This document shows, piece by piece, positions 31,378-41,081 of a stretch of 52,888 nucleotides of DNA. The stretch spans positions 1 through 52,888 of the forward strand of contig QHZD01000038.1 in NCBI GenBank assembly GCA_003225315.1. The letters are read 5' to 3'. Each line of letters opens with the position of its first letter. Position 1 is the stretch's first letter. Below the pieces are notes generated by a model. The model was not told the DNA's origin and searched no databases. It saw nothing but the letters and a program-made list of their open reading frames with translations. This stretch comes from Acidobacteriota bacterium (GTDB taxonomy: Bacteria; Acidobacteriota; Terriglobia; Acidiferrales; UBA7541). The position numbers and the translations under genes are program-made.

Positions 31378-31478
31378 TGTGCTGTCTCCTCGAAGCGCAC
31401 TGGCGCTTACAATCAATCGCGGGTCCTATCTAGCCTGCCCACCGGGGCGCACGCGAAGAGCACCGATCCTGGCGCGCC

Positions 31479-31510
31479 TTCGCGTGCACATTCCGAACCT
31501 TCCGTGACAG
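31479..31510 (-). promoter_or_regulatory. Degenerate fifth copy of the regional promoter element
   Basis: The plus-strand sequence TTCGCGTGC...TTCCG...TTCCGTGACAG resembles copy 32399-32431 in order and spacing but lacks the GGTCCAA core and the outer GTGACG. Like the others it sits just past the stop of the upstream gene and about 100-130 bases before a minus-strand start (31377). It may be a decayed relative. Confidence 0.3.
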
Positions 31511-31520
31511 CGGGAAGTTT

Positions 31521-32234
31521 TTACTGTTCGTTGCGGAAGAAGAAGTAGTCAGCGCTGTACGGCACCAGCACCTGATGACCAACGTCGTTGGAGGCCAAAC
31601 AGCCGGTGGCCGGATTAGCCGGAGCAGATCCGCCTTTTGTGTTCAGTCGCTGAATAAAAGTCGTCTTCGTGAGCGATTTGCCGCCCGCAGGTCCCTCATC
31701 AGAGCCGATCACCTGCAGCAACAGGCAGTCAATCGCGCCGCCATTGGGGCAACTTGCGTCGGTTCCCGCGGTAATGAAATCTTTTTTTTGCGCCCACACC
31801 CGGCTGCTATCAAAAGAACTCTGCCAGGTTGCATCACCGAAACGTGGCGGCTTCGGCCCGACGTCATTCGGATTCACCACCGGGCTCAGGAAGTGAGTGA
31901 TGATCTGTACCGCTTCTCCGAAAATGTGCGTGAAGAGAGTTGCTTCGGGGCGAGCATTGTTGACGGTCCAGGATACGCCGCCTGCTGGGTTGGGCAGGCA
32001 AACATATCCCTGTGTGCCGACTCCGTGACCCAGTAGGAATGCAGAGGTTCCCACCGGTGGCGTGATCCGGTCTGGTGTCGTCGGGCTTGGAATCGAGCCA
32101 AACTTGATTCTTTCGTTTTTGTCTTGGTTTTCTTGCGCATAGACTGTGCCGGAGAAAACCAGAACTGCGAGAGCCGCCAACCATCCGCGAAGGATGCCAG
32201 CGCCCCAGAACTTCTTGCCACAATTGTTGTTCAC
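31521..32234 (-). CDS. Secreted DUF3455-type protein
   Basis: 237 residues from a GTG at 32234, with AAGGAG ten bases upstream; an ATG at 32303 is an alternative. A signal peptide (about 10-33, ending TVYAQ) is followed by a domain like the DUF3455 family: PPVGTSAFLLGHGVGTQGYVC, SWTVNNARPEATLF, HFLSP, SFDSSRVWAQKKDF and TFIQRLNTKGGSAP...GHQVLVPYSADYFFFR. The family has no known function. Two Cys pairs may form disulfides. It lies 159 bases downstream of promoter-like copy 32393-32431. Confidence 0.78.
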   Translation of the reverse strand: MNNNCGKKFWGAGILRGWLAALAVLVFSGTVYAQENQDKNERIKFGSIPSPTTPDRITPPVGTSAFLLGHGVGTQGYVCLPNPAGGVSWTVNNARPEATLFTHIFGEAVQIITHFLSPVVNPNDVGPKPPRFGDATWQSSFDSSRVWAQKKDFITAGTDASCPNGGAIDCLLLQVIGSDEGPAGGKSLTKTTFIQRLNTKGGSAPANPATGCLASNDVGHQVLVPYSADYFFFRNEQ

Positions 32235-32392
32235 GTCTTTCTTTCTCCTTGTCTTTCGATTAAGAAGGGCCGCTGATCTTTCGCGTGTCGGTACAGACTT
32301 CATGGCGACTCACCGCCTCGATTGAAATCTTGCCTAGCTGCAGCAAGACCGCTGGCCCATGTAGAAGCTAAACTGTGCAGGCCAATCGATAC

Positions 32393-32431
32393 GTGACGTT
32401 CGCGTGCCTTTCCGGTCCAATTTCCGTGACG
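32393..32431 (-). promoter_or_regulatory. Regional ECF-like promoter element, copy A
   Basis: On the minus strand: GTCAC-N2-AAATTGGACCG, 14 bases, then CGTCAC (32398-32393). It precedes the DUF3455 gene by about 160 bases from its chosen start (90 from the alternative). On the plus strand this is GTGACG (32393), CGGTCCAA (32413) and GTGACG (32426). Confidence 0.6.
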
Positions 32432-32445
32432 GCCGGCTGCGAGGG

Positions 32446-33822
32446 TCACCGGCCCAGGGCCGTGCGAGCGCGCGCCAGGTGGTGCCAGCTGTGCCGTAGT
32501 GCGTGGTCTTCAACGACGAACTGCGCGGTGACAGGCGCGCCGAAGCTCAGCGAGAAGGACGCCGCCCGGTCCAACTCGTCATCCGTGAACGCGCGCACTG
32601 CGGCGGCCGCCTCACGACTGTTCCGGCGCAAGAGTTCCAGCGCGGCGGCCTTCGTTACCTCCGCCTGGTCCTGGGCATGCTTGGCATTCAACTCCGCGAC
32701 AACCTCCCACGTGACGTCCGTAACCGCCTTGCCGCTGGCGATTGCTCGCGCGAGATCAATTTCAATAGGGTAGACGCTGGCTACATGGTGCACGATGACG
32801 CCGACCGAATGGCCGGGCTTTCCACCTTCCGGCACCGCTGTACGCCACTCCGCTTCCGTGAGTCCTTCGGCAAAAGCAGCCAAGCCGGCAGCGCCTTCCT
32901 CGATTCGCGCAGCCAGAGATTCAGCACGACGACTCAGGGAGCCTCTTTTTTTGCAAGTAGCAGGGGTCCGTGGCACGTCCGAAATGCTCCCGCTCCGAGT
33001 CGCAATGACCTCAAGGTATTCGGCGTCGACCTTAGTGGCATTGCCATCCGCCTTGTTGTGTCCGGACCACAGGCGGACAAGCTCACTCCGGAGTTTCCCT
33101 TGTCCTTCCGCGTCGAGAGATGCGAACGCGCGTGACATCGGACCGTAGGTGGTACGATAGAATTCCACTACGGCTTCCGGTGGGAAGGGATAGTCAAAGT
33201 GATAGACGCGAAGTGCGCACTTCAGATCGGCAATTCCTTCATGCAGACGCTCCCGAACCGTGGCTTCATCCCCCCACAGGACCGGCGCGGGCATGCCGGA
33301 CGGAGCGATATGGTTGGAAATCACTTTGAACATTTGCCCAACGAACCCACCGGGCGTCCAATTCGCCATGGCAATCATTCCGCCTGGGCGGCACACGCGG
33401 ATGAGTTCGGCCGCGACGACATCAGGTCGAGGCGCAAACATCGCTCCGATCAAGCTGACCACTGCGTCAAACTGGCCATCTCCATATGGCAGCGATTCGG
33501 CGTCCTCCTCTTCAAAGGTGATCTCAAGTCCCTCGGCGGCCGCGCGGGCACGGGCTTTCTCGACCCAGGAAGTGGAAATGTCACAACCAGTTACCCGTGT
33601 GCCAGCTCTGGCCGCAATCAGGGGCAGTTGCCCGGCGCCGCAGCCCACGTCCAGCAGCCGCGTCCCCGGTGTGACGCCGAGCCGCTGGAAAAACAACTCC
33701 GCGTCCTTTTCCATATAGCGGGAGAAAACGTCGTAGTCTCCCGTCATCCATGTCGTCTTCAGGCGAATCTTGAGTTCGTCAAGCTCCGCTGTCGTCGGTG
33801 TCGCTTTCGCAATCGCATTCAT
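32446..33822 (-). CDS. SAM methyltransferase fused to a DinB-like domain
   Basis: 458 residues from the ATG at 33822 with AAGGAG nine bases upstream. The N-terminal half is a class I methyltransferase: motif I LLDVGCGAGQ (about 56-65), CDIS acidic loop, DAVVSLIGAMFAPRPDVVAAELIRVCRPGG. The C-terminal part (about 300-458) has a DinB/MDMPI-like four-helix bundle look, with VIVHHVASVYPIEIDLARAIA and a terminal HALRHSWHHLARAR that supplies His ligands. DinB_2 domains are thiol- or metal-linked transferase folds. The fusion suggests a two-step modification of a small substrate. No frameshift is needed to join them. Confidence 0.82.
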   Translation of the reverse strand: MNAIAKATPTTAELDELKIRLKTTWMTGDYDVFSRYMEKDAELFFQRLGVTPGTRLLDVGCGAGQLPLIAARAGTRVTGCDISTSWVEKARARAAAEGLEITFEEEDAESLPYGDGQFDAVVSLIGAMFAPRPDVVAAELIRVCRPGGMIAMANWTPGGFVGQMFKVISNHIAPSGMPAPVLWGDEATVRERLHEGIADLKCALRVYHFDYPFPPEAVVEFYRTTYGPMSRAFASLDAEGQGKLRSELVRLWSGHNKADGNATKVDAEYLEVIATRSGSISDVPRTPATCKKRGSLSRRAESLAARIEEGAAGLAAFAEGLTEAEWRTAVPEGGKPGHSVGVIVHHVASVYPIEIDLARAIASGKAVTDVTWEVVAELNAKHAQDQAEVTKAAALELLRRNSREAAAAVRAFTDDELDRAASFSLSFGAPVTAQFVVEDHALRHSWHHLARARTALGR

Positions 33823-33917
33823 GCTGGCAATCTCCTTCTCTATAGGTACAGACCCTTGTGGCATTGCTTTCACTAGAATCTCGTCTAGTCGCGGTAAGAC
33901 GCCTACCCACGTACAAG

Positions 33918-34619
33918 CTAGACGGTCGTGCTTAATCGATACGTGACGTCCGGGTATCTTTCCGGTCCAATTTCGGTGACGGCCGCATCTCTGCCCTCAA
34001 CGGAAACGGAGCCAAGATCGCGTGCTGCTGGCCCTTGTTCCCCATACAGCAGCAGCTGCAGGCGTTTACGGGCCTTGTGCACCTGGGACTTCAAGCAACC
34101 AATCGAGCATCCAACGAGGGTCGCAATTTCACTGTGTTGGTATCCCATAACGTCATGCAACAAGAAAAGCCGTTTGTAACCGGCCGGTAACTTGCGAATC
34201 GCGCGCATGAGGTTCAGCCGCTCAATTGCACCTAGCATCGAAGTGTCGCTGGTGCCGAATTCATTGGAAGCATCGAGATTTGCGGGAGCCTGATTTGAAC
34301 TGTGAGGATGGATCTCAGGGGCTCTCTTCCGGCGCAGATGCATCAACACGGCGTTGACGGCCACTCGGTGCAGCCAGGTCGAAAAGCAGGAATCACCACG
34401 GAATGTGCCGATCTTGCGAAATACCCGCAGAAATATCTGTTGGGTCAGGTCCTCTGCGTCAGGTGTATTCTTGAGCATTCGTAAACAGACGCTGTACACT
34501 CGCTTGCTGTGCTCCTTGTACAGGTATTCAAAAGCCGCAGCGTCGCCATGCTGGGCGCGGCGGATAGCTTCTGGTTCAGTCAGCTCGCGCCTCGGTTCCT
34601 CCGTGAATGTACGCCTCAT
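33918..34619 (-). CDS. ECF-type sigma factor, last gene of a coupled operon
   Basis: 233 residues. Region 2 is at about 35-105 (YKEHSKRVYSVCLRMLKN, DAEDLTQQIFLRVFRKI, FSTWLHRVAVNAVLMHLRRKR) and region 4 at about 140-195 (LPAGYKRLFLLHDVMGYQHSEIATLVGCSIGCLKSQVHKARKRL split by the turn). The ATG overlaps the stop of the 58-residue gene (ATGA). No classical anti-sigma gene is adjacent. The final 20 codons lie within promoter-like copy B, so the C-terminus (AVTEIGPER...) is shaped by that element. It is the natural candidate to recognise the repeated promoter. Confidence 0.92.
   Translation of the reverse strand: MRRTFTEEPRRELTEPEAIRRAQHGDAAAFEYLYKEHSKRVYSVCLRMLKNTPDAEDLTQQIFLRVFRKIGTFRGDSCFSTWLHRVAVNAVLMHLRRKRAPEIHPHSSNQAPANLDASNEFGTSDTSMLGAIERLNLMRAIRKLPAGYKRLFLLHDVMGYQHSEIATLVGCSIGCLKSQVHKARKRLQLLLYGEQGPAARDLGSVSVEGRDAAVTEIGPERYPDVTYRLSTTV
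33943..33981 (-). promoter_or_regulatory. Regional ECF-like promoter element, copy B (inside the sigma gene end)
   Basis: Minus strand: GTCAC-N2-AAATTGGACCG, 14 bases, CGTCAC (33948-33943), about 120 bases before the methyltransferase/DinB start. It overlaps the last codons of the sigma gene. Plus-strand landmarks: GTGACG 33943, CGGTCCAA 33963, GTGACG 33976. Confidence 0.6.
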
Positions 34620-34792
34620 GCCGATTTACCTTCCTTCAAGTAGACTTCCCAGCAGTCCCCGCTACGAAATCTGCGGTGGAAGAAGTGGTAGCCCTCCTTG
34701 CCGGGAATCTTGAAGCAGACGTAGCCGAAGCCTTCTCCCGGGACAATGGGCTGCTGACATTTGCTGCAGATGACGACTGTCCTGAATTTCAT
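34616..34792 (-). CDS. 58-residue zinc-binding-type protein upstream of sigma
   Basis: A 58-residue frame from the ATG at 34792, with GGGGAGG seven bases upstream. It starts MKFRTVVICSKCQQPIVPGE and ends overlapping the sigma ATG (ATGA at 34616-34619). It has a CxxC knuckle (C9, C12), further Cys at about 27 and 46, and an aromatic/His-rich YHFFHRRFRSGDCWEVYL, so it looks like a small zinc-ribbon protein. Its coupling to sigma makes it a candidate anti-sigma or co-regulator, but that is inference; no family with known activity is recognised. Confidence 0.7.
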   Translation of the reverse strand: MKFRTVVICSKCQQPIVPGEGFGYVCFKIPGKEGYHFFHRRFRSGDCWEVYLKEGKSA

Positions 34793-34795
34793 AGG

Positions 34796-35170
34796 TTACC
34801 TCCCCAGCTTTGCTTGCTCTTCCTTGTAGGACAGCTCGTTTCGTAGCGTTTCCAGATCCCTATCGGCTTTCTGTAGACGAGCTCGTGCCTGGTCAATGGC
34901 CTTGAACACTTCGAGGTCGTAGATACCGACTCTCACTTCGGTCTCGTGCGCTTTGAGAAACTTCTGGATAACGAGCATTTCTTTGTCGAGCGAATCTTGC
35001 GGAGAGTCGTCTGGCAAGAACTTGATCTGGGTTATGAAGTCATTCCATGCAACGTTGCGCACGATGTGAACGACTGAGGGACGCTCTTTCCCATACGTTA
35101 GGTAAACATACGAGCTGATCAAGGTGACCAGCAGGAAAGTGCGAAAGAGTCGAGTGCGTATGATGTTCAT
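34796..35170 (-). CDS. Membrane-anchored coiled-coil protein, unknown
   Basis: 124 residues. A short N-terminal hydrophobic anchor or signal (about 8-25, LFRTFLLVTLISSYVYLTYG) is followed by a soluble region and a C-terminal heptad-rich helix (AIDQARARLQKADRDLETLRNELSYKEEQAKL, about 90-120). The start overlaps the upstream gene by ATGA, and three bases separate its stop from the 58-residue gene. Position before the sigma gene and a single anchor would fit a signal-transducing or anti-sigma-like partner; no family recognised. Confidence 0.65.
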   Translation of the reverse strand: MNIIRTRLFRTFLLVTLISSYVYLTYGKERPSVVHIVRNVAWNDFITQIKFLPDDSPQDSLDKEMLVIQKFLKAHETEVRVGIYDLEVFKAIDQARARLQKADRDLETLRNELSYKEEQAKLGR

Positions 35171-35460
35171 GGCGAACCTCTTTCCTTACAGGAGCTCTTC
35201 TTCCTAGGTGGGACCTGTTCGCTTCTGTTACCCGCTCGGGCCTTGTCGGCTGAAGCCACGACCAAGTCAAAACGCTGCCCCAGAAACTTCAGCAGCTCCT
35301 CGGTCGAGCGGAATCGTCGCTCGGTGCAGGAATCAACCTCCTCGACCCAGCCTTCGAATAAGTCGTCGGCGGGCCGGGAGCCATTTCCAAGTCGAACTAC
35401 AAATGCGAGTCGCATATCTAAACGCCGAACCCCGGCTCCATCGAATTCATCCTTAGACAT
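35167..35460 (-). CDS. Small acidic/basic protein of unknown function in the sigma operon
   Basis: 97 residues from the ATG at 35460 (weak AAGAAG upstream); the frame continues further upstream through a hairpin, which argues against a longer start. It has LAFVVRLGNG...LFEGWVEEVDSCTERRFRSTEELLKFLGQRF, a pattern I recall in small hypothetical proteins of many bacteria, and a basic tail. It overlaps the next gene by ATGA. No function can be given. Confidence 0.6.
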   Translation of the reverse strand: MSKDEFDGAGVRRLDMRLAFVVRLGNGSRPADDLFEGWVEEVDSCTERRFRSTEELLKFLGQRFDLVVASADKARAGNRSEQVPPRKKSSCKERGSP

Positions 35461-35473
35461 CAGATCTTCTTGA

Positions 35474-35498
35474 AGGGGCCTCGACCACCGAGGCCCCT
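35474..35498 (-). terminator. Strong hairpin between the lipoprotein and the small genes
   Basis: AGGGGCCTC (35474-35482) pairs perfectly with GAGGCCCCT (35490-35498) around a seven-base loop. It lies 26 bases beyond the lipoprotein stop and 14 bases before the next start. There is no T run, so it is better read as an intra-operon processing, stabilising or partial-termination structure than as a full terminator. Confidence 0.5.
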
Positions 35499-35523
35499 CC
35501 AAGTCTGCCCAACGCTTCTGCGA

Positions 35524-36807
35524 CTAGGGGTTGAGGGTAAGGTTCTGCCCGCTTTGAGACGGACTGATGGTGACGATGCCTCGGGTGACCCCAGTGCGTC
35601 CAAACGTGTCCGTGACCTTGGCCGTGATGGTCACCGTCTTCTTGTCGGCCGGCACCAGGAGAGCTGTACCCACCACCCAGTCCGCGGTGACGCGAATGCG
35701 GCCGTTTGCGTCAATCTCCGAACCGGCAATATTGAACAGCGGGGCGAGGTTCACTCCCGCAAGAACGATGTTGCCGTTGGCCTGACGGATGGGATCTGAG
35801 AACGTGAGTTCGAGGCCCGGGAAGTTGCGATTCGGCCCGCCCGTAGCACCCGTGGTTGGGTTGGGGATCTGCGAACCGTCGGCGATGAGCCCAACGGTAG
35901 GATTCACAACGCCCTGGCGGATGCCATTCTCGCTGACTCCAATCTCGGCGTCGCCCTGAGCCACGGCGCTGACTTGAATGAAGAACAGAGCACCGTTGGT
36001 GGCGTTGAGCGTATTGTCCTGCGCGCCGTGCGCGATCGAGGTTGGCACGCGCGGCGCGATGATCGTGACTTCGGGCGCGCCCGGAAGGCCTTCGGTGCCA
36101 CTCACGGCGGAAGGCTCCGGCGTAAGGGATTGGCCAGAAGACCTGGAACGATCCACTTTCAGTGTGATCCGATCCATGCCGATCCGGCCTGCGTCATCCA
36201 CAAAGGCGGCAGTTAGTGTGAACTGGTCCACATCCTCAGGCACCGACTCCAGCACGTGCCAGCCGAACCAGGTCGTCACGCCGTCGCCGGGAGTGTCGTC
36301 CGTGCCAGCGACGTTGAATGCGCCGGCGAAATTGTTGAATTTAGGCAGAACTTTGCCATCCGGAGTGATGAGGTCAGTATCGAAGAAGACGTAAAGCCCC
36401 GGTGCGTCAGGGTTGAGCCCGCCGGCATTGAGGACGTCCACGTGTCTGATGTTGGTCGCTTCCTTCACGCGCAGAGCCGTTTTGTCGCGAGTGACCACTT
36501 CCAAGTTCACAGCGAAGCCCGCGCCGTTGGGGCTCCCGTTACCTTCCCCTGTTCTGGATTCGCCAGGGGCCACGCGGGAGTCGGCCAGCGGCGAAACGAT
36601 GCGCACAACCGGAGCCAAGTCGCCTTTCACGCCGTCGCGTGGCCCAATTTGAATCACGTTCGTGTAATTGATTGGTTGCGTGTGCGGAGTCGGGGGGTCG
36701 TCACCCCGTGCAACCGCGCACCCGTACACAAACACCAGTGCGAGGGGACTTAACGCGAGGATTTTCTTCAGGCAAATGCCTTTCCACAGATTCTTCTTGA
36801 AAACCAC
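35524..36807 (-). CDS. Secreted lipoprotein, first gene of the sigma operon
   Basis: 427 residues from a GTG at 36807 with AAGGAGG nine bases upstream. A lipoprotein signal (ILALSPLALVFVYGC, Cys about residue 30) is followed by beta-rich regions with YTNVIQIGPRDGVKGDLAP, VVRIVSPLADSRVAPGES, AEIGVSENGIRQGV and repeated Ig-like turns; the C-terminus ends ITAKVTDTFGRTGVTRGIVTISPS. I recognise no enzymatic motif. Copy C of the promoter element lies 89 bases upstream, so this gene probably leads the operon that ends in the sigma gene. Confidence 0.7.
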   Translation of the reverse strand: MVFKKNLWKGICLKKILALSPLALVFVYGCAVARGDDPPTPHTQPINYTNVIQIGPRDGVKGDLAPVVRIVSPLADSRVAPGESRTGEGNGSPNGAGFAVNLEVVTRDKTALRVKEATNIRHVDVLNAGGLNPDAPGLYVFFDTDLITPDGKVLPKFNNFAGAFNVAGTDDTPGDGVTTWFGWHVLESVPEDVDQFTLTAAFVDDAGRIGMDRITLKVDRSRSSGQSLTPEPSAVSGTEGLPGAPEVTIIAPRVPTSIAHGAQDNTLNATNGALFFIQVSAVAQGDAEIGVSENGIRQGVVNPTVGLIADGSQIPNPTTGATGGPNRNFPGLELTFSDPIRQANGNIVLAGVNLAPLFNIAGSEIDANGRIRVTADWVVGTALLVPADKKTVTITAKVTDTFGRTGVTRGIVTISPSQSGQNLTLNP

Positions 36808-36895
36808 GAGTGCATTCCTCCTTGAAATTGATTACCGGTTTAAGCCCGCAGGCCGACCGGCACGGGCAGAGTATGAGAATGGAACGATGGAGGGC

Positions 36896-36935
36896 GTGAC
36901 GTGCCGGTGACGATTTCGGTCCAATTTTGGTGACG
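36896..36935 (-). promoter_or_regulatory. Regional ECF-like promoter element, copy C (sigma operon)
   Basis: Minus strand: GTCAC-N2-AAATTGGACCG, 15 bases, CGTCAC (36901-36896). The 15-base spacer contains a further CGTCAC. On the plus strand GTGACG occurs at 36896, 36907 and 36930. It lies 89 bases before the GTG of the operon that encodes the sigma factor. Confidence 0.65.
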
Positions 36936-37038
36936 CTAAGCCATGAGGGCGGCGAGAATTCGATAGCCTCACCAGGAGGAGTTCACTCTCTTGAGGAAGG
37001 CCGTGGCGCAATCAGGCAGGGTTGCACAAGGGGGGACT

Positions 37039-37713
37039 CTACTCCGCTGCTGAGAGTTCTGTGCCGCTCGCTGAAGGCCATTTCCCTCCAGCGACAGCCA
37101 CGCAGAGCTTCTCTGTCATCCGGTGCGACTGTGATTTAGTAAAAAGCAGCAAGCCCTTGTTGGCACGTGCCAACTCCCCCAGGTTCCAGTGCGCACGCAT
37201 GATCCCCCATGGTGAGTGTGAATTATTCCCCAGCAATAGGTGTCCAATCTCGTGAGCTGCAACGTGCCCAAGAATGATTGCTGGGTCCACGAATGTTTCG
37301 TGGCGCAGTTTTTCGATTCCTTCATAAAAGATGTCGGCTTGACAACCAGTCCCGTCAGACAAGAGATAGGAAATCCCTAAAGTAGAGTCTTTTAAACTGA
37401 GAGAACGTCGCACAATGCGCAGGTGGAGATGCTGTGGGAAAGCGGCCTGCCGGCACGCTACCTCGCCGCCGGGAGCCTCTTCCGCCGGGAAACAATTGAC
37501 CCAGTCAACATGTATTCCCGATTCTTCGAATACTTGAGACGAGACCTTTTCTGCCTCCTTCAGTATTTCGGAGGAAATGCCCGAATCGTTGAAAACAGAG
37601 ATCGTTACGCTTGGGCTTTCTTGCGGTAAGTTCTTGGCCCAAACTGCCGCGCTTGAGAAAGCAATAAATAGTCCCAACTTAATGGATATCCGGAGCATCT
37701 TTTTGAGATTCAC
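37039..37713 (-). CDS. Secreted metzincin-like zinc metalloprotease candidate
   Basis: 224 residues from a GTG at 37713 with GGAGG upstream. A signal peptide (about 1-27, ending AAVWAK) is followed by a domain containing HEIGHLLLGNNSHSPWGIM. This is the HExxHxxGxxH zinc site followed by a Met (GIM) that could be the Met-turn, as in metzincins. Several Cys in CFPAEEAPGGEVACRQAA and DGTGCQAD could form disulfides. The family is small (about 200 residues) and not a known named protease. Copy D of the promoter element lies about 100 bases upstream. Substrate unknown. Confidence 0.72.
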   Translation of the reverse strand: MNLKKMLRISIKLGLFIAFSSAAVWAKNLPQESPSVTISVFNDSGISSEILKEAEKVSSQVFEESGIHVDWVNCFPAEEAPGGEVACRQAAFPQHLHLRIVRRSLSLKDSTLGISYLLSDGTGCQADIFYEGIEKLRHETFVDPAIILGHVAAHEIGHLLLGNNSHSPWGIMRAHWNLGELARANKGLLLFTKSQSHRMTEKLCVAVAGGKWPSASGTELSAAE

Positions 37714-37815
37714 GGCGCTCACCTCCCGGGTGGAGCTGACCATGCGCGCTCGAGCCGAATCACGAAAGTTCTGCGCAGGACGACCGCAGAGTAGGGGGTG
37801 CGGGAGAAAAAAGGC

Positions 37816-37855
37816 ATGACGCCTCGGTGACGTTTTCGGTCCAATTTTCGTGACG
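37816..37855 (-). promoter_or_regulatory. Regional ECF-like promoter element, copy D (between divergent genes)
   Basis: Minus strand: GTCAC-N2-AAATTGGACCG, 15 bases, CGTCAT (37821-37816). Plus-strand landmarks: ATGACG 37816, GTGACG 37827, CGGTCCAA 37837, GTGACG 37850. It separates the metalloprotease gene from the divergent regulator gene. Confidence 0.6.
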
Positions 37856-38006
37856 CGAGCCCACAGGGGGGACAGAGTTGCTCTTCCTCGGGGCGGGCCT
37901 AGTAGGCCGCAGAAGGGAGTGCAAACTCAGGATGGGTGCCGTAAGATACAGACCGTACCGAGTTGTGGCCGCGTCACTCCGTTTAAGGTCAAAGCGGGTT
38001 CGGGAG

Positions 38007-41000
38007 ATGAAGGTATTCCAGCCATTCCGGCTTGATACGGTAAACCACTGCTTGTGGCGCGGGGAAGAACGTATGTCGCTCACCCCAAAGGCTTTCGATG
38101 TACTGCGCTACCTTGTCGAGCACGCGGATCGGCTCGTAACCCAGGATGAGATACTCGGGGCTCTCTGGCCGGAAACGTATGTAAACCCAGAGGTCATCAA
38201 GAAATATATCCTGGGAATCCGGAGGGCCTTGGGTGATCGTCACGGCAAACCTGAATTCATTGAAACGTTTCCGCGGAGGGGATATCAGTTCGTAGCCTCG
38301 GTGAGTGAAGTGAGCGCTGGTGCGCCCTCAGACGTGAGCCTCAGCGCCGAGCGGAAAATGGTCGGTCGCGAAGCCGCTATGGCCCAACTGGACGGCTACT
38401 TCGGCCAGGCCCTGAAAGCTCAGCGGCAGGTGATCTTCATCACTGGAGAGGCGGGAGTCGGAAAGACAACCCTGGTTGATGAGTTTCATCGAACAGCTAC
38501 TCGCCGTCCGAATCTGCGAGTAGTCCGCGGGCAGTGTGTCGAGGGTTTCGGCGGCAAGGAAGCGTACTATCCCGTGCTGGAAGCGCTCGGCCAATGGGTT
38601 CGCGAGGCGAGCGGCGGCCCCGTGGTCCATACCCTGGCGAAACAAGCCCCCACGTGGCTGATTCAGTTCCCTTCGCTCGTAAAGGCAGAACAAAGGGAAG
38701 CGCTGCAAAAGGAAATACTCGGAGCTACGCGCGAACGAATGGTGCGTGAAATTTGCGAGGCCTTGGAATCATTGACAGCGCAAGATCCGCTCGTCATTGT
38801 CCTGGAAGACCTCCATTGGGTGGATCCGTCCACTCTTGATTTCATCTCCGCGCTGGCCCGCCGCCGTGGGCCGGCGAAGTTGCTGTTGTTGGGAACCTAC
38901 CGCCCCGCTGATGTCATCATTTCGCAGAGTCCATTGAAAGCACTGAAGCAGGATTTGGTACTCCACAATCTGAGTCAAGAAATTGCTCTTGAACGGCTTG
39001 AAGAGTCCGATGTCGCCGAATATCTGGCCATCAAGTTCGTTGACGGGGGCTTTCCCCCCCGATTTGCGAAGCTGATCTACCACCACTCCGGCGGCAACGC
39101 GCTTTTCATGGTGACCATCCTCCAGGATATGGTGAAAAAGGGAGTAATTGCACAAGCTAATGGGAAATGGACACTCAGTGTGGCGCTTGAAGATGTTGGC
39201 CCGAGTGTCCCGGAGACATTGGATCAACTCATAGACGCGCAATTCCAGCAGTTGAGTGCCGTAGAGCAGTGCATTCTGAGAAGCGCCAGTGTGGCCGGAG
39301 AGCGTTTCTCCGTATGGGCGCTTAGCATTACGGCCGAATTCGAAAGTGGCAGCATTGACGAAGCTTGCGAGGGACTCGCCGACAGGCTGCAATTTATAAA
39401 GGCCGCCGGAATTCACAAGTTGGCGAACGGCCAGATTTCCGCGCACTATGATTTCCGTCATTCGCTTTATCGGGAGGTTCTGTATCGTCGGCTTTCCGAA
39501 GTCGCCCGCTCGAAATTACATCTGTTGTTGGCTCAGAGGCTCAAAGCGTTTTGCGATCCCTGCGAACAGGAACTGGCAACGGAACTCGCCCAGCACTTCG
39601 AGGGAGGGCACGACTACGAGCAGGCCATCCATTATCTGATACTTGCGGCCGAGAATGCGGTGAGGCGATTCGCTTACCGCGATTGCGTCGAGATACTGCA
39701 CCATGCGCGTGAACTAGTGCCGAAGCTTACTCCTTCCCTTCGAGCCGAAATTGAGGTTCGCATCCTTGAGTTTATGGGCGATGCTCATTTCGCCTTGGGC
39801 GCTCTGACAGAATCCGCCCAGGCGTATGCGGCCGCCGCGGCACGCGCGCAACAAGCTGGCCTCAAAGCGGCTCAAATGCATGCGTTAACCTCCGCAATGT
39901 ATCCACTGGGCTTCATTGATCCCGAAAAAGGTGTCGCGGCAATGGATGAGGCCGTGAAAATCAGCATGAGTGTGAACGATCCCCCAAGTTTAGCGCTCAC
40001 ACAAATGCTGGCAGCAGGTTTCCGCCTGGTGTTTGATTCCTGGACCCATACAAATGCTGAACTGTGTACGTCCGCTTACGAAACTTTGCTTCGTCTGTCT
40101 CCCGCGGAGTTGGATCCCTATCAGCGAATTGTGTATGCGCATATTTTAATGGTTCAAGGCAAGTACACAGAAGCATTGGATCTATGCGAACGCGGCGTAT
40201 CCGAAGCCAGCGTATCCGGGGTGGGTCAAGTAGTGAACTTTCTGGCGCACTTTGGTGCACTGAGCGCAGAGACAATGATCTTTCTCCGCAAAGGGCAACT
40301 TGGAAAAGTGTTGCAGATTACTAAAGCCGGCAGAGCCTCTCCGGACGAGAATATGTCGCTTTATTGGCTACTCACTCTCCGCGAGACCATGCTTCGCACA
40401 ATCGCTTTCGACTTCGAGGGTGCAAGGCAAATTTGTCAAGCAGCCCATAATGTCAAGGGGAGAGAATTTCCGGACGCACAGTACTACTCGATTGATCAGA
40501 TAGCCGCCGGAAATCTCGCGCTGCAGCAACGGAAATACTCTGAAGCACTTGAACATTTCAAGCACGTACAAGACCTTGATGTGCACGCAAAATTCTTCAT
40601 GAATTGGGAGTGGCGTATGATGGCAGACCTTGAATCGGGCAATGCCTGGCTCCTGTCCGGAAACGTCGTGAACGCGCGCACTCCGGCTGATGGTCTTCTA
40701 AAGTCCGCGCTGGCTACCAGCGATCCGTATCTGCAGGCGCTCGCGTGGGATCTGCAGGCGAGAGTGGCCATCGCCGAAAACGATTTGCCAGGTGCCCGCG
40801 AGTCGATTCAGGAAGCTCTCGCAATTATCGATAGATTTGAAATTTTGTTCGCAGCCTGGCAAGTCTGTGGCACGGCTTGGCAGTTGTACCAGCGCGTAAA
40901 GGAACACAAAACGGCGCAAACGAATCGCGAGCGCGCCGAAGCATGCATCCTCAAGATTGCTAATTCGTTCGACCCTGATGAACCTCTTCGCACAACGTTC

Positions 41001-41081
41001 CTCGCCGCAGCTCCTGTCCGCCGAATCTTGCGTGAAAGTGTCGTGAAGAAGGCCACGCGTCAACATCACGCGTCAGCATAG
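38007..41081 (+). CDS. Winged-helix regulator with AAA-type ATPase and TPR-like repeats
   Basis: 1024 residues from the ATG at 38007, where the winged helix begins; an in-frame TTG at 37878 or ATG at 37932 are alternatives. An OmpR/CadC-type winged helix is at about 1-105 (LTPKAFDVLRYLVEHADRLVTQDEIL, RRGYQFVA). A STAND/AAA-like ATPase follows, with Walker A GEAGVGKTT at about 149 and Walker B VIVLEDLHWVDPST. A long alpha-helical C-terminus (about 480-1000) resembles TPR repeats. Such proteins (AfsR/MalT-like logic) activate transcription after ligand binding. It is divergent from the protease gene across copy D. Confidence 0.88.
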   Translation: MKVFQPFRLDTVNHCLWRGEERMSLTPKAFDVLRYLVEHADRLVTQDEILGALWPETYVNPEVIKKYILGIRRALGDRHGKPEFIETFPRRGYQFVASVSEVSAGAPSDVSLSAERKMVGREAAMAQLDGYFGQALKAQRQVIFITGEAGVGKTTLVDEFHRTATRRPNLRVVRGQCVEGFGGKEAYYPVLEALGQWVREASGGPVVHTLAKQAPTWLIQFPSLVKAEQREALQKEILGATRERMVREICEALESLTAQDPLVIVLEDLHWVDPSTLDFISALARRRGPAKLLLLGTYRPADVIISQSPLKALKQDLVLHNLSQEIALERLEESDVAEYLAIKFVDGGFPPRFAKLIYHHSGGNALFMVTILQDMVKKGVIAQANGKWTLSVALEDVGPSVPETLDQLIDAQFQQLSAVEQCILRSASVAGERFSVWALSITAEFESGSIDEACEGLADRLQFIKAAGIHKLANGQISAHYDFRHSLYREVLYRRLSEVARSKLHLLLAQRLKAFCDPCEQELATELAQHFEGGHDYEQAIHYLILAAENAVRRFAYRDCVEILHHARELVPKLTPSLRAEIEVRILEFMGDAHFALGALTESAQAYAAAAARAQQAGLKAAQMHALTSAMYPLGFIDPEKGVAAMDEAVKISMSVNDPPSLALTQMLAAGFRLVFDSWTHTNAELCTSAYETLLRLSPAELDPYQRIVYAHILMVQGKYTEALDLCERGVSEASVSGVGQVVNFLAHFGALSAETMIFLRKGQLGKVLQITKAGRASPDENMSLYWLLTLRETMLRTIAFDFEGARQICQAAHNVKGREFPDAQYYSIDQIAAGNLALQQRKYSEALEHFKHVQDLDVHAKFFMNWEWRMMADLESGNAWLLSGNVVNARTPADGLLKSALATSDPYLQALAWDLQARVAIAENDLPGARESIQEALAIIDRFEILFAAWQVCGTAWQLYQRVKEHKTAQTNRERAEACILKIANSFDPDEPLRTTFLAAAPVRRILRESVVKKATRQHHASA

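Follow-up and report, generated by a model that had tools for sequence, protein, structure and literature searches.

The locus and its repeated element

The window analysed here comprises 52,888 nucleotides (nt), positions 1 to 52,888 of contig QHZD01000038.1, from an Acidobacteriota bacterium (assembly GCA_003225315.1; Terriglobia, Acidiferrales, UBA7541). It contains a series of minus-strand genes, one of which encodes an extracytoplasmic function (ECF) sigma factor, and beside them the plus-strand gene TRC, for a protein that joins an OmpR-type winged helix to an AAA_16 ATPase and a TPR-like region (Table 1). The element GTCAC-N2-AAATTGGACCG occurs here in four exact minus-strand copies inside 5.5 kb, and each is followed by CGTCA(C/T), just as an earlier reading of this DNA (the sequence-only reading) had claimed. 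GGACC and CGTCA are 15 nt apart in copies 1 and 2 and 16 nt apart in copies 3 and 4. Every copy also precedes a minus-strand gene as that reading stated, with the correction that copy 2 lies within the 3′ end of the sigma open reading frame (ORF), where it encodes about 15 of the last ~28 codons; those ~28 residues are the excess of the window sigma factor over its relatives in genomes G009 and G022 (205 and 207 amino acids).

We regard it as likely that each element joins the operator of an activator to a promoter of the sigma70 type, with the TRC protein as its likeliest reader. The grounds are comparative: the copies themselves, their period, a constant TANNNT hexamer, the co-occurrence of such arrays with TRC orthologs, and the lack of such an element near two relatives of the sigma factor. 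The sequence-only reading had taken the GTCAC element and the CGTCA(C/T) box as an ECF promoter read by the sigma factor at this locus, an interpretation that is probably wrong. Its proposal of a local regulon, a small one, is supported, in that a common regulatory element heads contiguous units and several of their products look exported.

That reading had also suggested searching the whole genome and related genomes. Within the window, six sites match the 18-mer at up to three mismatches against 0.53 expected, a number that none of 100 shuffles reached. Across the whole genome (4,975,678 bases, 97.6% complete) the 18-mer is matched exactly four times; with mismatches allowed, there is no site at one, one site at two and 23 sites at three. 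This total of 28 is no higher than the 30 of the reversed control, which leaves the four exact copies as the only remarkable ones. Among 88 family relatives (55–99% complete), six genomes have one 1-mismatch match each, against three control matches. At this strictness the element is peculiar to the present locus, and close relatives did not show it. The pattern TTKGACS-N14,15-CGTCAY, whose gap is one base short for copies 3 and 4, matched copies 1 and 2 and two other places in the genome against three in the control, which argues against a wider regulon of that form. The exact extended pattern, too strict for the ortholog site in L116 described below (box 4, TTCAC), had no match in genome contigs or viral contigs.

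Table 1. Positions of the repeated element, the genes around it and the related features in other genomes (window coordinates unless a locus or contig is named)
Feature	Position	Strand	Remarks
Copy 1: GTCACGGAAAT, TGGACCGGAAA, GGCACGCGAAC, GTCACGTATCG	32387..32430	-	18-bp match 32413-32430; ahead of DUF3455 gene
Copy 2: GTCACCGAAAT, TGGACCGGAAA, GATACCCGGAC, GTCACGTATCG	33937..33980	-	18-bp match 33963-33980; ahead of methyltransferase/DinB gene, within sigma ORF 3′ end
Copy 3: GTCACCAAAAT, TGGACCGAAATC, GTCACCGGCAC, GTCACGCCCTC	36890..36934	-	18-bp match 36917-36934; ahead of lipoprotein-to-sigma gene string
Copy 4: GTCACGAAAAT, TGGACCGAAAAC, GTCACCGAGGC, GTCATGCCTTT	37810..37854	-	18-bp match 37837-37854; ahead of metzincin-like gene, divergent from TRC
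Predicted -10, copy 1 (TAGCTT)	32365..32370	-	23 nt past CGTCA
Predicted -10, copy 2 (TAGCTT)	33915..33920	-	23 nt past CGTCA
Predicted -10, copy 3 (TACTCT)	36868..36873	-	23 nt past CGTCA
Predicted -10, copy 4 (TACTCT)	37788..37793	-	23 nt past CGTCA
TRC, OmpR-type winged helix (PF00486), AAA_16 ATPase and TPR-like region	38007..41081	+	1024 amino acids from ATG 38007 (by homology); ORF open from 37878
Metzincin-like protein (HEIGHLLLGNNSHSPWGIM; no Pfam match)	37039..37743	-	possible start GTG 37713, by ribosome-site-like sequence only
Lipoprotein-like protein	35524..36807	-	no match at E 1e-8 in 88 other family genomes
p98	35167..35415	-	ORF from 35463; likely start ATG 35415 by homologs
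p124, small protein with hydrophobic N-terminal segment	34796..35170	-	ORF; homolog adjoins zn58 in G006
zn58, 58-amino-acid Cys/His-rich protein	34616..34792	-	overlaps sigma start
ECF sigma factor, 233 amino acids	33918..34619	-	Pfam
S-adenosylmethionine methyltransferase fused to DinB_2 domain	32446..33822	-	Pfam; likely start ATG 33822, by ribosome-site-like sequence only
DUF3455 protein (PF11937), signal-like N-terminus	31521..32234	-	start GTG 32234 by homologs in G009 and G022
Hairpin between lipoprotein and p98 genes	about 35469-35503	-	-42.7 kcal/mol over a 101-nt stretch, no T-run
TRC ortholog L110			genome G523, same phylum, another class
TRC ortholog L116	JAIQFW010000036.1		Terriglobia contig, metagenome-assembled genome (MAG)
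TRC ortholog L117	JAIQFS010000037.1		Terriglobia MAG contig
TRC ortholog L118	JAIQFE010000003.1		Terriglobia MAG contig
TRC ortholog L120	JANXXL010000178.1		Bryobacterales MAG contig; TRC residues 44-671 only
TRC homolog L119	QHZR01000399.1		78% identity, C-terminal half only
GTTACCGAAAC-like repeats upstream of distant TRC homologs	L113 870-960; L114 1405-1510		11-bp repeats
Conserved upstream block of G009 and G022	L065 11540-11620, 13580-13650; L066 8530-8600
G022 sigma factor	L066 9832-10455
Related ECF sigma factor in the same genome	G000:C29:89844-90425		53% identity

Periodic boxes and a constant hexamer

Counted from the first GTCAC, each copy parses into four head-to-tail boxes of ~11 bp with the consensus GTCACCGAAAN. 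The self-match is best at a lag of 11 in copies 1–3 (0.48, 0.42 and 0.48), and in copy 4 a lag of 12 comes first (0.41) and 11 second (0.39); in shuffles the lag-11 values have p = 0.003, 0.017, 0.004 and 0.036 for copies 1–4, which are not independent of one another. A single TANNNT lies within the 45 nt past CGTCA in every copy, always at an offset of 23, and a shared offset arose in 5 of 100,000 trials in which columns were shuffled within related pairs. Between box 4 and the hexamer lie 16 nt in the window and 15–16 nt in orthologs. Counted from the start of the last box, the hexamer is 26–27 nt on in all 12 promoters compared, five of the eight ortholog ones having been picked by eye or by rules that include TANNNT.

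The sequence-only reading had seen two parts of a longer structure, and missed the further periodic boxes and the constant hexamer. In terms of this array, its putative "-35" corresponds to box 2 and its "-10" to box 4, which leaves boxes 1 and 3 without an evident function in an ECF promoter. Two conserved boxes at ECF spacing can be units of a longer repeat array.

Arrays beside TRC orthologs

The TRC protein matches PF00486 (E 8.2e-16), AAA_16 (3e-26, starting about 22 residues past the winged-helix match) and TPR-like families; Pfam gave no BTA/BTAD family at E<=0.01 and no receiver domain. The best Protein Data Bank match of its winged helix is CadC (5ju7, 3.4e-10), and PhoB follows at 6.6e-8. 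Orthologs of 49–54% identity were found at five loci, L110 (50%), L116, L117, L118 and L120, and a further search in the class of G523 added no new locus (3 of 41 genomes matched, all already known).

When the 18-mer alone was run over 12 TRC loci with up to four mismatches, it matched L116 at one mismatch, in the gap that separates TRC from the divergent p98 gene, and L110 at two and four mismatches, ahead of two divergent ORFs with signal-like N-termini; the other 4-mismatch matches, in L114 and L121, were both within coding sequence. All three L116 and L110 sites have TANNNT 22 nt on, though the search omitted it. The L116 site reads GTCACCGAAAT, TGGACCAAAAC, GTCACCAGGAT, TTCACGCCTTG and then CATTCTCATACTCT; its ECF "-10" is broken (TTTCA), and the array is kept along with the same TACTCT as in copy 3. 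A rule asking for three [ACG]AC boxes at steps of about 11 bp, followed by TANNNT, was matched eight times in 145,625 bases, where shuffled sequence gave 1.6 matches. The eight are window copies 1 and 3 (copies 2 and 4 were missed), two sites in L110 and a single site in each of L116, L117 (p98), L118 and L120. All eight precede an ORF. In 5 of 12 loci a p98 homolog is found close to the TRC homolog, and in L116, L117, L118 and L120 the p98 start, set by homology, falls 9–10 nt past TANNNT, a spacing as in a leaderless gene if TANNNT serves as the -10.

A matrix built from the four window copies alone, with the -10 included, was run on 13 TRC-homolog loci and on 131 control loci (873,663 bases; L005-L034, L036-L064, L123-L194). 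The best scores were 50.5 in L116, 39.7 and 34.2 in L110, 36.8 in L118 and 23.9 in L117, at sites that all precede ORFs in the TRC neighbourhood (a 48-codon ORF in L117). The best control reached 23.0, in a locus earlier picked for a near match to the 18-mer, so that four of the five ~50% orthologs with upstream DNA beat all 131 controls; L119, which lacks the upstream part, scored 8.4. The five element-type orthologs have winged helices 62–79% identical to that of TRC and a common PExx[KR]KYIL recognition helix. The other seven homologs (winged helix 44–54% identical; helices DAVLK-like, EAVLK, DAALK, DSVLK or PTVLR) scored no more than 11.4, L122 having no upstream DNA. By these scores and helices, the array and the TRC recognition helix go together.

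Among the seven, L114 scored 11.4 at a site between its TRC and p98 genes and L113 scored 11.3 at one some 0.55 kb ahead of TRC. Both sites have GTTACCGAAAC-like repeats, which suggests a wider family of such operators.

The sigma factor and its relatives

Relatives of the sigma factor from the same kind of operon occur in G009 (62%) and G022 (53%), in the order DUF3455-zn58-sigma, and they closely resemble the window sigma factor in the sigma2 and sigma4 helices. Eight upstream or intergenic regions of these two genomes contain no TTKGAC-N13-18-CGTC, no GTCAC-N2-AAA and no paired GTCAC boxes. An ECF promoter footprint common to these relatives was sought and rejected as a source of the window element: G009 and G022 share a different conserved upstream block, TGTCGTCTTT...GATATCTCAAGT...CAATAGTT, which precedes the DUF3455 genes of both and a second G009 gene.

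At E<=1e-30 the window sigma factor has matches in 87 of 89 family genomes, its own included, the best per genome being mostly of 51–57% identity; plasmids gave distant matches only, all under 60% identity. No anti-sigma family was recognised among ten proteins scanned. The G022 protein has a stretch before the sigma4 helix that is unlike its homologs, as if locally out of frame, and sequencing error and decay are indistinguishable as its cause. L116 holds another ECF-like ORF with a kinase gene.

A proposed switch and its known counterparts

Successive TRC winged-helix domains would bind the four head-to-tail boxes, one helical turn each. With TANNNT as the -10 and its T at -12, the last box would lie at about -39 to -29, in the place of a -35, and the other three would reach upstream to about -72. 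Bound TRC could then recruit RNA polymerase with the housekeeping sigma factor to a promoter that has no good -35, and its AAA/TPR part could gate this activity in response to a signal; binding, activation, the housekeeping sigma factor and the signal are the parts that we infer. The targets would be four local units: the DUF3455 protein, the methyltransferase-DinB protein, the string lipoprotein-p98-p124-zn58-sigma, and the metzincin-like protein. The sequence-only reading had placed the sigma operon under copy 3, and the unit headed by copy 3 does probably include the string that ends in the sigma gene; the sigma factor would be controlled by the switch and would not read it. Transcripts are predicted to start at about 32358, 33908, 36861 and 37781, 29 nt from the starts expected of an ECF promoter (32387, 33937, 36890 and 37810).

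The closest counterpart described is AfsR of Streptomyces coelicolor, which combines an OmpR-type domain, BTA, an NTPase and TPR, uses a pair of 11-bp repeats that span -40 to -19, and contacts sigma region 4 (PMC10936776). TRC likewise joins an OmpR-type winged helix to an NTPase and a TPR region, and its putative sites resemble the afs box in their 11-bp direct repeats and in a sigma70-type promoter with a poor -35; the upstream AfsR repeat (-40 to -30) would nearly coincide with the last box of the window (PMC10936776). Unlike AfsR, TRC has no BTA match, and since its AAA match also begins so soon after the winged helix, we do not class it as a Streptomyces antibiotic regulatory protein (SARP). 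The sites of SARPs are 8 bp away from the -10 (PMC10936776); of these SARP features, direct repeats of 11 or 22 bp are found here, and the BTA domain and the 8-bp distance are not. PimR, a SARP-LAL protein, is partly comparable: it has three 7+4-bp repeats upstream of the -35 box at pimM, bound by cooperative monomers of a large ATP-binding regulator, which differ from our case in the repeat (CGGCAAG), the SARP domain and the single target gene (PMC5930380).

With PhoB/OmpR and CadC, TRC shares the DNA-binding fold family, and differs in having no receiver match and an AAA/TPR effector part instead. PhoB uses TGTCA-type direct repeats with an 11-bp step, and tandem same-strand repeats one turn apart, as in operators of the OmpR/PhoB type, are what the window copies contain. 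By analogy, TRC most likely works like a SARP, or like PhoB.

More generally, we see an even chance that scattered activators of the type winged helix-AAA (STAND-like)-TPR, without BTA, read three to four 11-bp boxes about one turn upstream of AfsR sites and drive small resident regulons of exported-looking proteins and p98, sometimes leaderless, and that here such a regulon captured an ECF sigma operon by operator spread. Read as an operator for TRC, what looked like autoregulation of an ECF sigma factor becomes a regulator-operator pair recognisable by sequence in other genomes. Searches of the open-access literature on acidobacterial OmpR/AAA/TPR regulators and their repeats showed no description of such sites for winged-helix/AAA/TPR regulators.

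Weighing the alternatives

An ECF promoter (-35 TTGGACC, -10 CGTCA) read by the sigma factor and driving both its own operon and a local regulon would account for the asymmetric boxes at 15–16 nt and for the position of the sigma gene, downstream of copy 3 and overlapping copy 2. Autoregulated ECF promoters likewise have two boxes 15–16 nt apart of which the second is CGTCA, and a CGT-type -10, autoregulation and AAC in the -35 are their hallmarks (PMC8103513). CGTCA is present in all four window copies; TTGGACC, however, has no AAC. Such a promoter also leaves the invariant first GTCAC, the 11-bp period and the constantly spaced TANNNT unexplained. The array and TACTCT persist in L116 where CGTCA is lost, the sigma relatives of two genomes lack the element in the eight regions scanned, TRC orthologs carry it with no sigma homolog seen within loci of 3.6–13.1 kb, and none of the ten proteins scanned belongs to a recognised anti-sigma family; the association is with TRC, not with the sigma factor, and we consider an ECF promoter improbable. 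A combination, in which TRC occupies the upstream boxes and an ECF holoenzyme uses TTGGACC/CGTCA, either as one element or as two overlapping promoters, is very unlikely: both geometries are indeed present together in the four window copies, but box 4 could hardly be occupied by TRC and serve as a -10 simultaneously, and TANNNT is retained in orthologs that have lost CGTCA or TTGGAC.

The arrays might instead be bound by another OmpR-type regulator of the genome. In 11 of 14 loci of congeners the metzincin-like gene faces a divergent CadC-like Trans_reg_C gene, so genes of this sort are under other regulators of the type; CadC-like regulators beside metzincin-like or zn58 genes have winged helices 34–39% identical to that of TRC. 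Yet the arrays stand beside TRC orthologs and track their recognition helix, even in G523 of another class, and within the family neither a TRC ortholog (among at most eight candidates scored per genome) nor the element was found outside this genome, which makes another reader highly improbable. The congener metzincin promoter element, despite its ECF-like geometry, was rejected as a form of the window element, being a different element beside a different, CadC-like regulator; it is a lead only. TTTGACG-N9-TTATCTNGTCA is exact in 5 of 36 genus genomes and has two mismatches in G022 and G035, all seven sites being upstream of the metzincin-like gene (L079-L085) and divergent from CadC-like regulators; three more 2-mismatch matches lie elsewhere, and the control gave ten matches in all. 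Element and CadC-like gene are probably another regulator-operator pair. Finally, conservation by copying only, through recent duplication of a promoter segment and with no special regulator, draws on the 69% identity of copies 1 and 2 over the 45 nt downstream of CGTCA (47% for copies 3 and 4). It is barely credible, as the flanks are only 24–33% identical between pairs, near chance, where the element is nearly invariant, and the element recurs beside TRC in another class. The similar leaders of copies 1 and 2 had also raised the idea of a mobile repeat or an RNA leader there.

Several points weigh against an operator read by TRC. Copies 1/2 and 3/4 are duplication-related pairs, so the four copies amount to about two independent samples, and the TANNNT-offset and period tests were framed after the sequence had been inspected. 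Box 2 (TGGACCG) is off consensus in all copies, and TTGGACC and the last box keep the 15–16-nt geometry of an ECF promoter; a TTTGAC-N16-GTCA geometry also precedes metzincin-like genes of congeners. The four boxes end 15–16 nt before the -10 and extend upstream, a spacing that differs from that of the two AfsR repeats. Only five ortholog loci have upstream DNA. Four sites there, those ahead of p98 in L117, L118 and L120 and the divergent one in L117, were picked out visually or with a rule containing TANNNT, and their -10 does not count as independent evidence; in the matrix search L117 barely beats the controls and L120 (8.5) fails to exceed them. The phylum search for TRC covered two scored candidates per genome and gives a lower bound, and the family search, in which nothing reached E 1e-100 except a 30% match in G056, rests on at most eight scored candidates per genome. 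No homolog of the window sigma factor was found at E 1e-3 in the 12 TRC loci, each of only 3.6–13.1 kb, from which a more distant sigma gene would escape. A promoter of the TTGACA/TATAAT type was found nowhere in 31400-38100 against 2.0 expected by chance, which is weak either way.

Gene order and small genes of the locus

The G022 genes run DUF3455-zn58-sigma-TIGR03118. The window has both TIGR03118 and DUF3455 downstream of the sigma gene, and the methyltransferase gene and copies 1 and 2 intervene between sigma and DUF3455. Judged by gene order, the window arrangement looks like rearrangement combined with operator spread. Expression of the sigma genes may be uncoupled from copy 3 by the strong hairpin that follows the lipoprotein gene, ahead of p98. 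The zn58 protein has the motif CxxC...HxFFH...C; of 399 genomes sampled across the class, five encode it, and all five belong to this genus. The protein accompanies two ECF types, directly upstream in this genome, G009, G022 and G006 and one gene away in G021, and could be a partner of the sigma factor.

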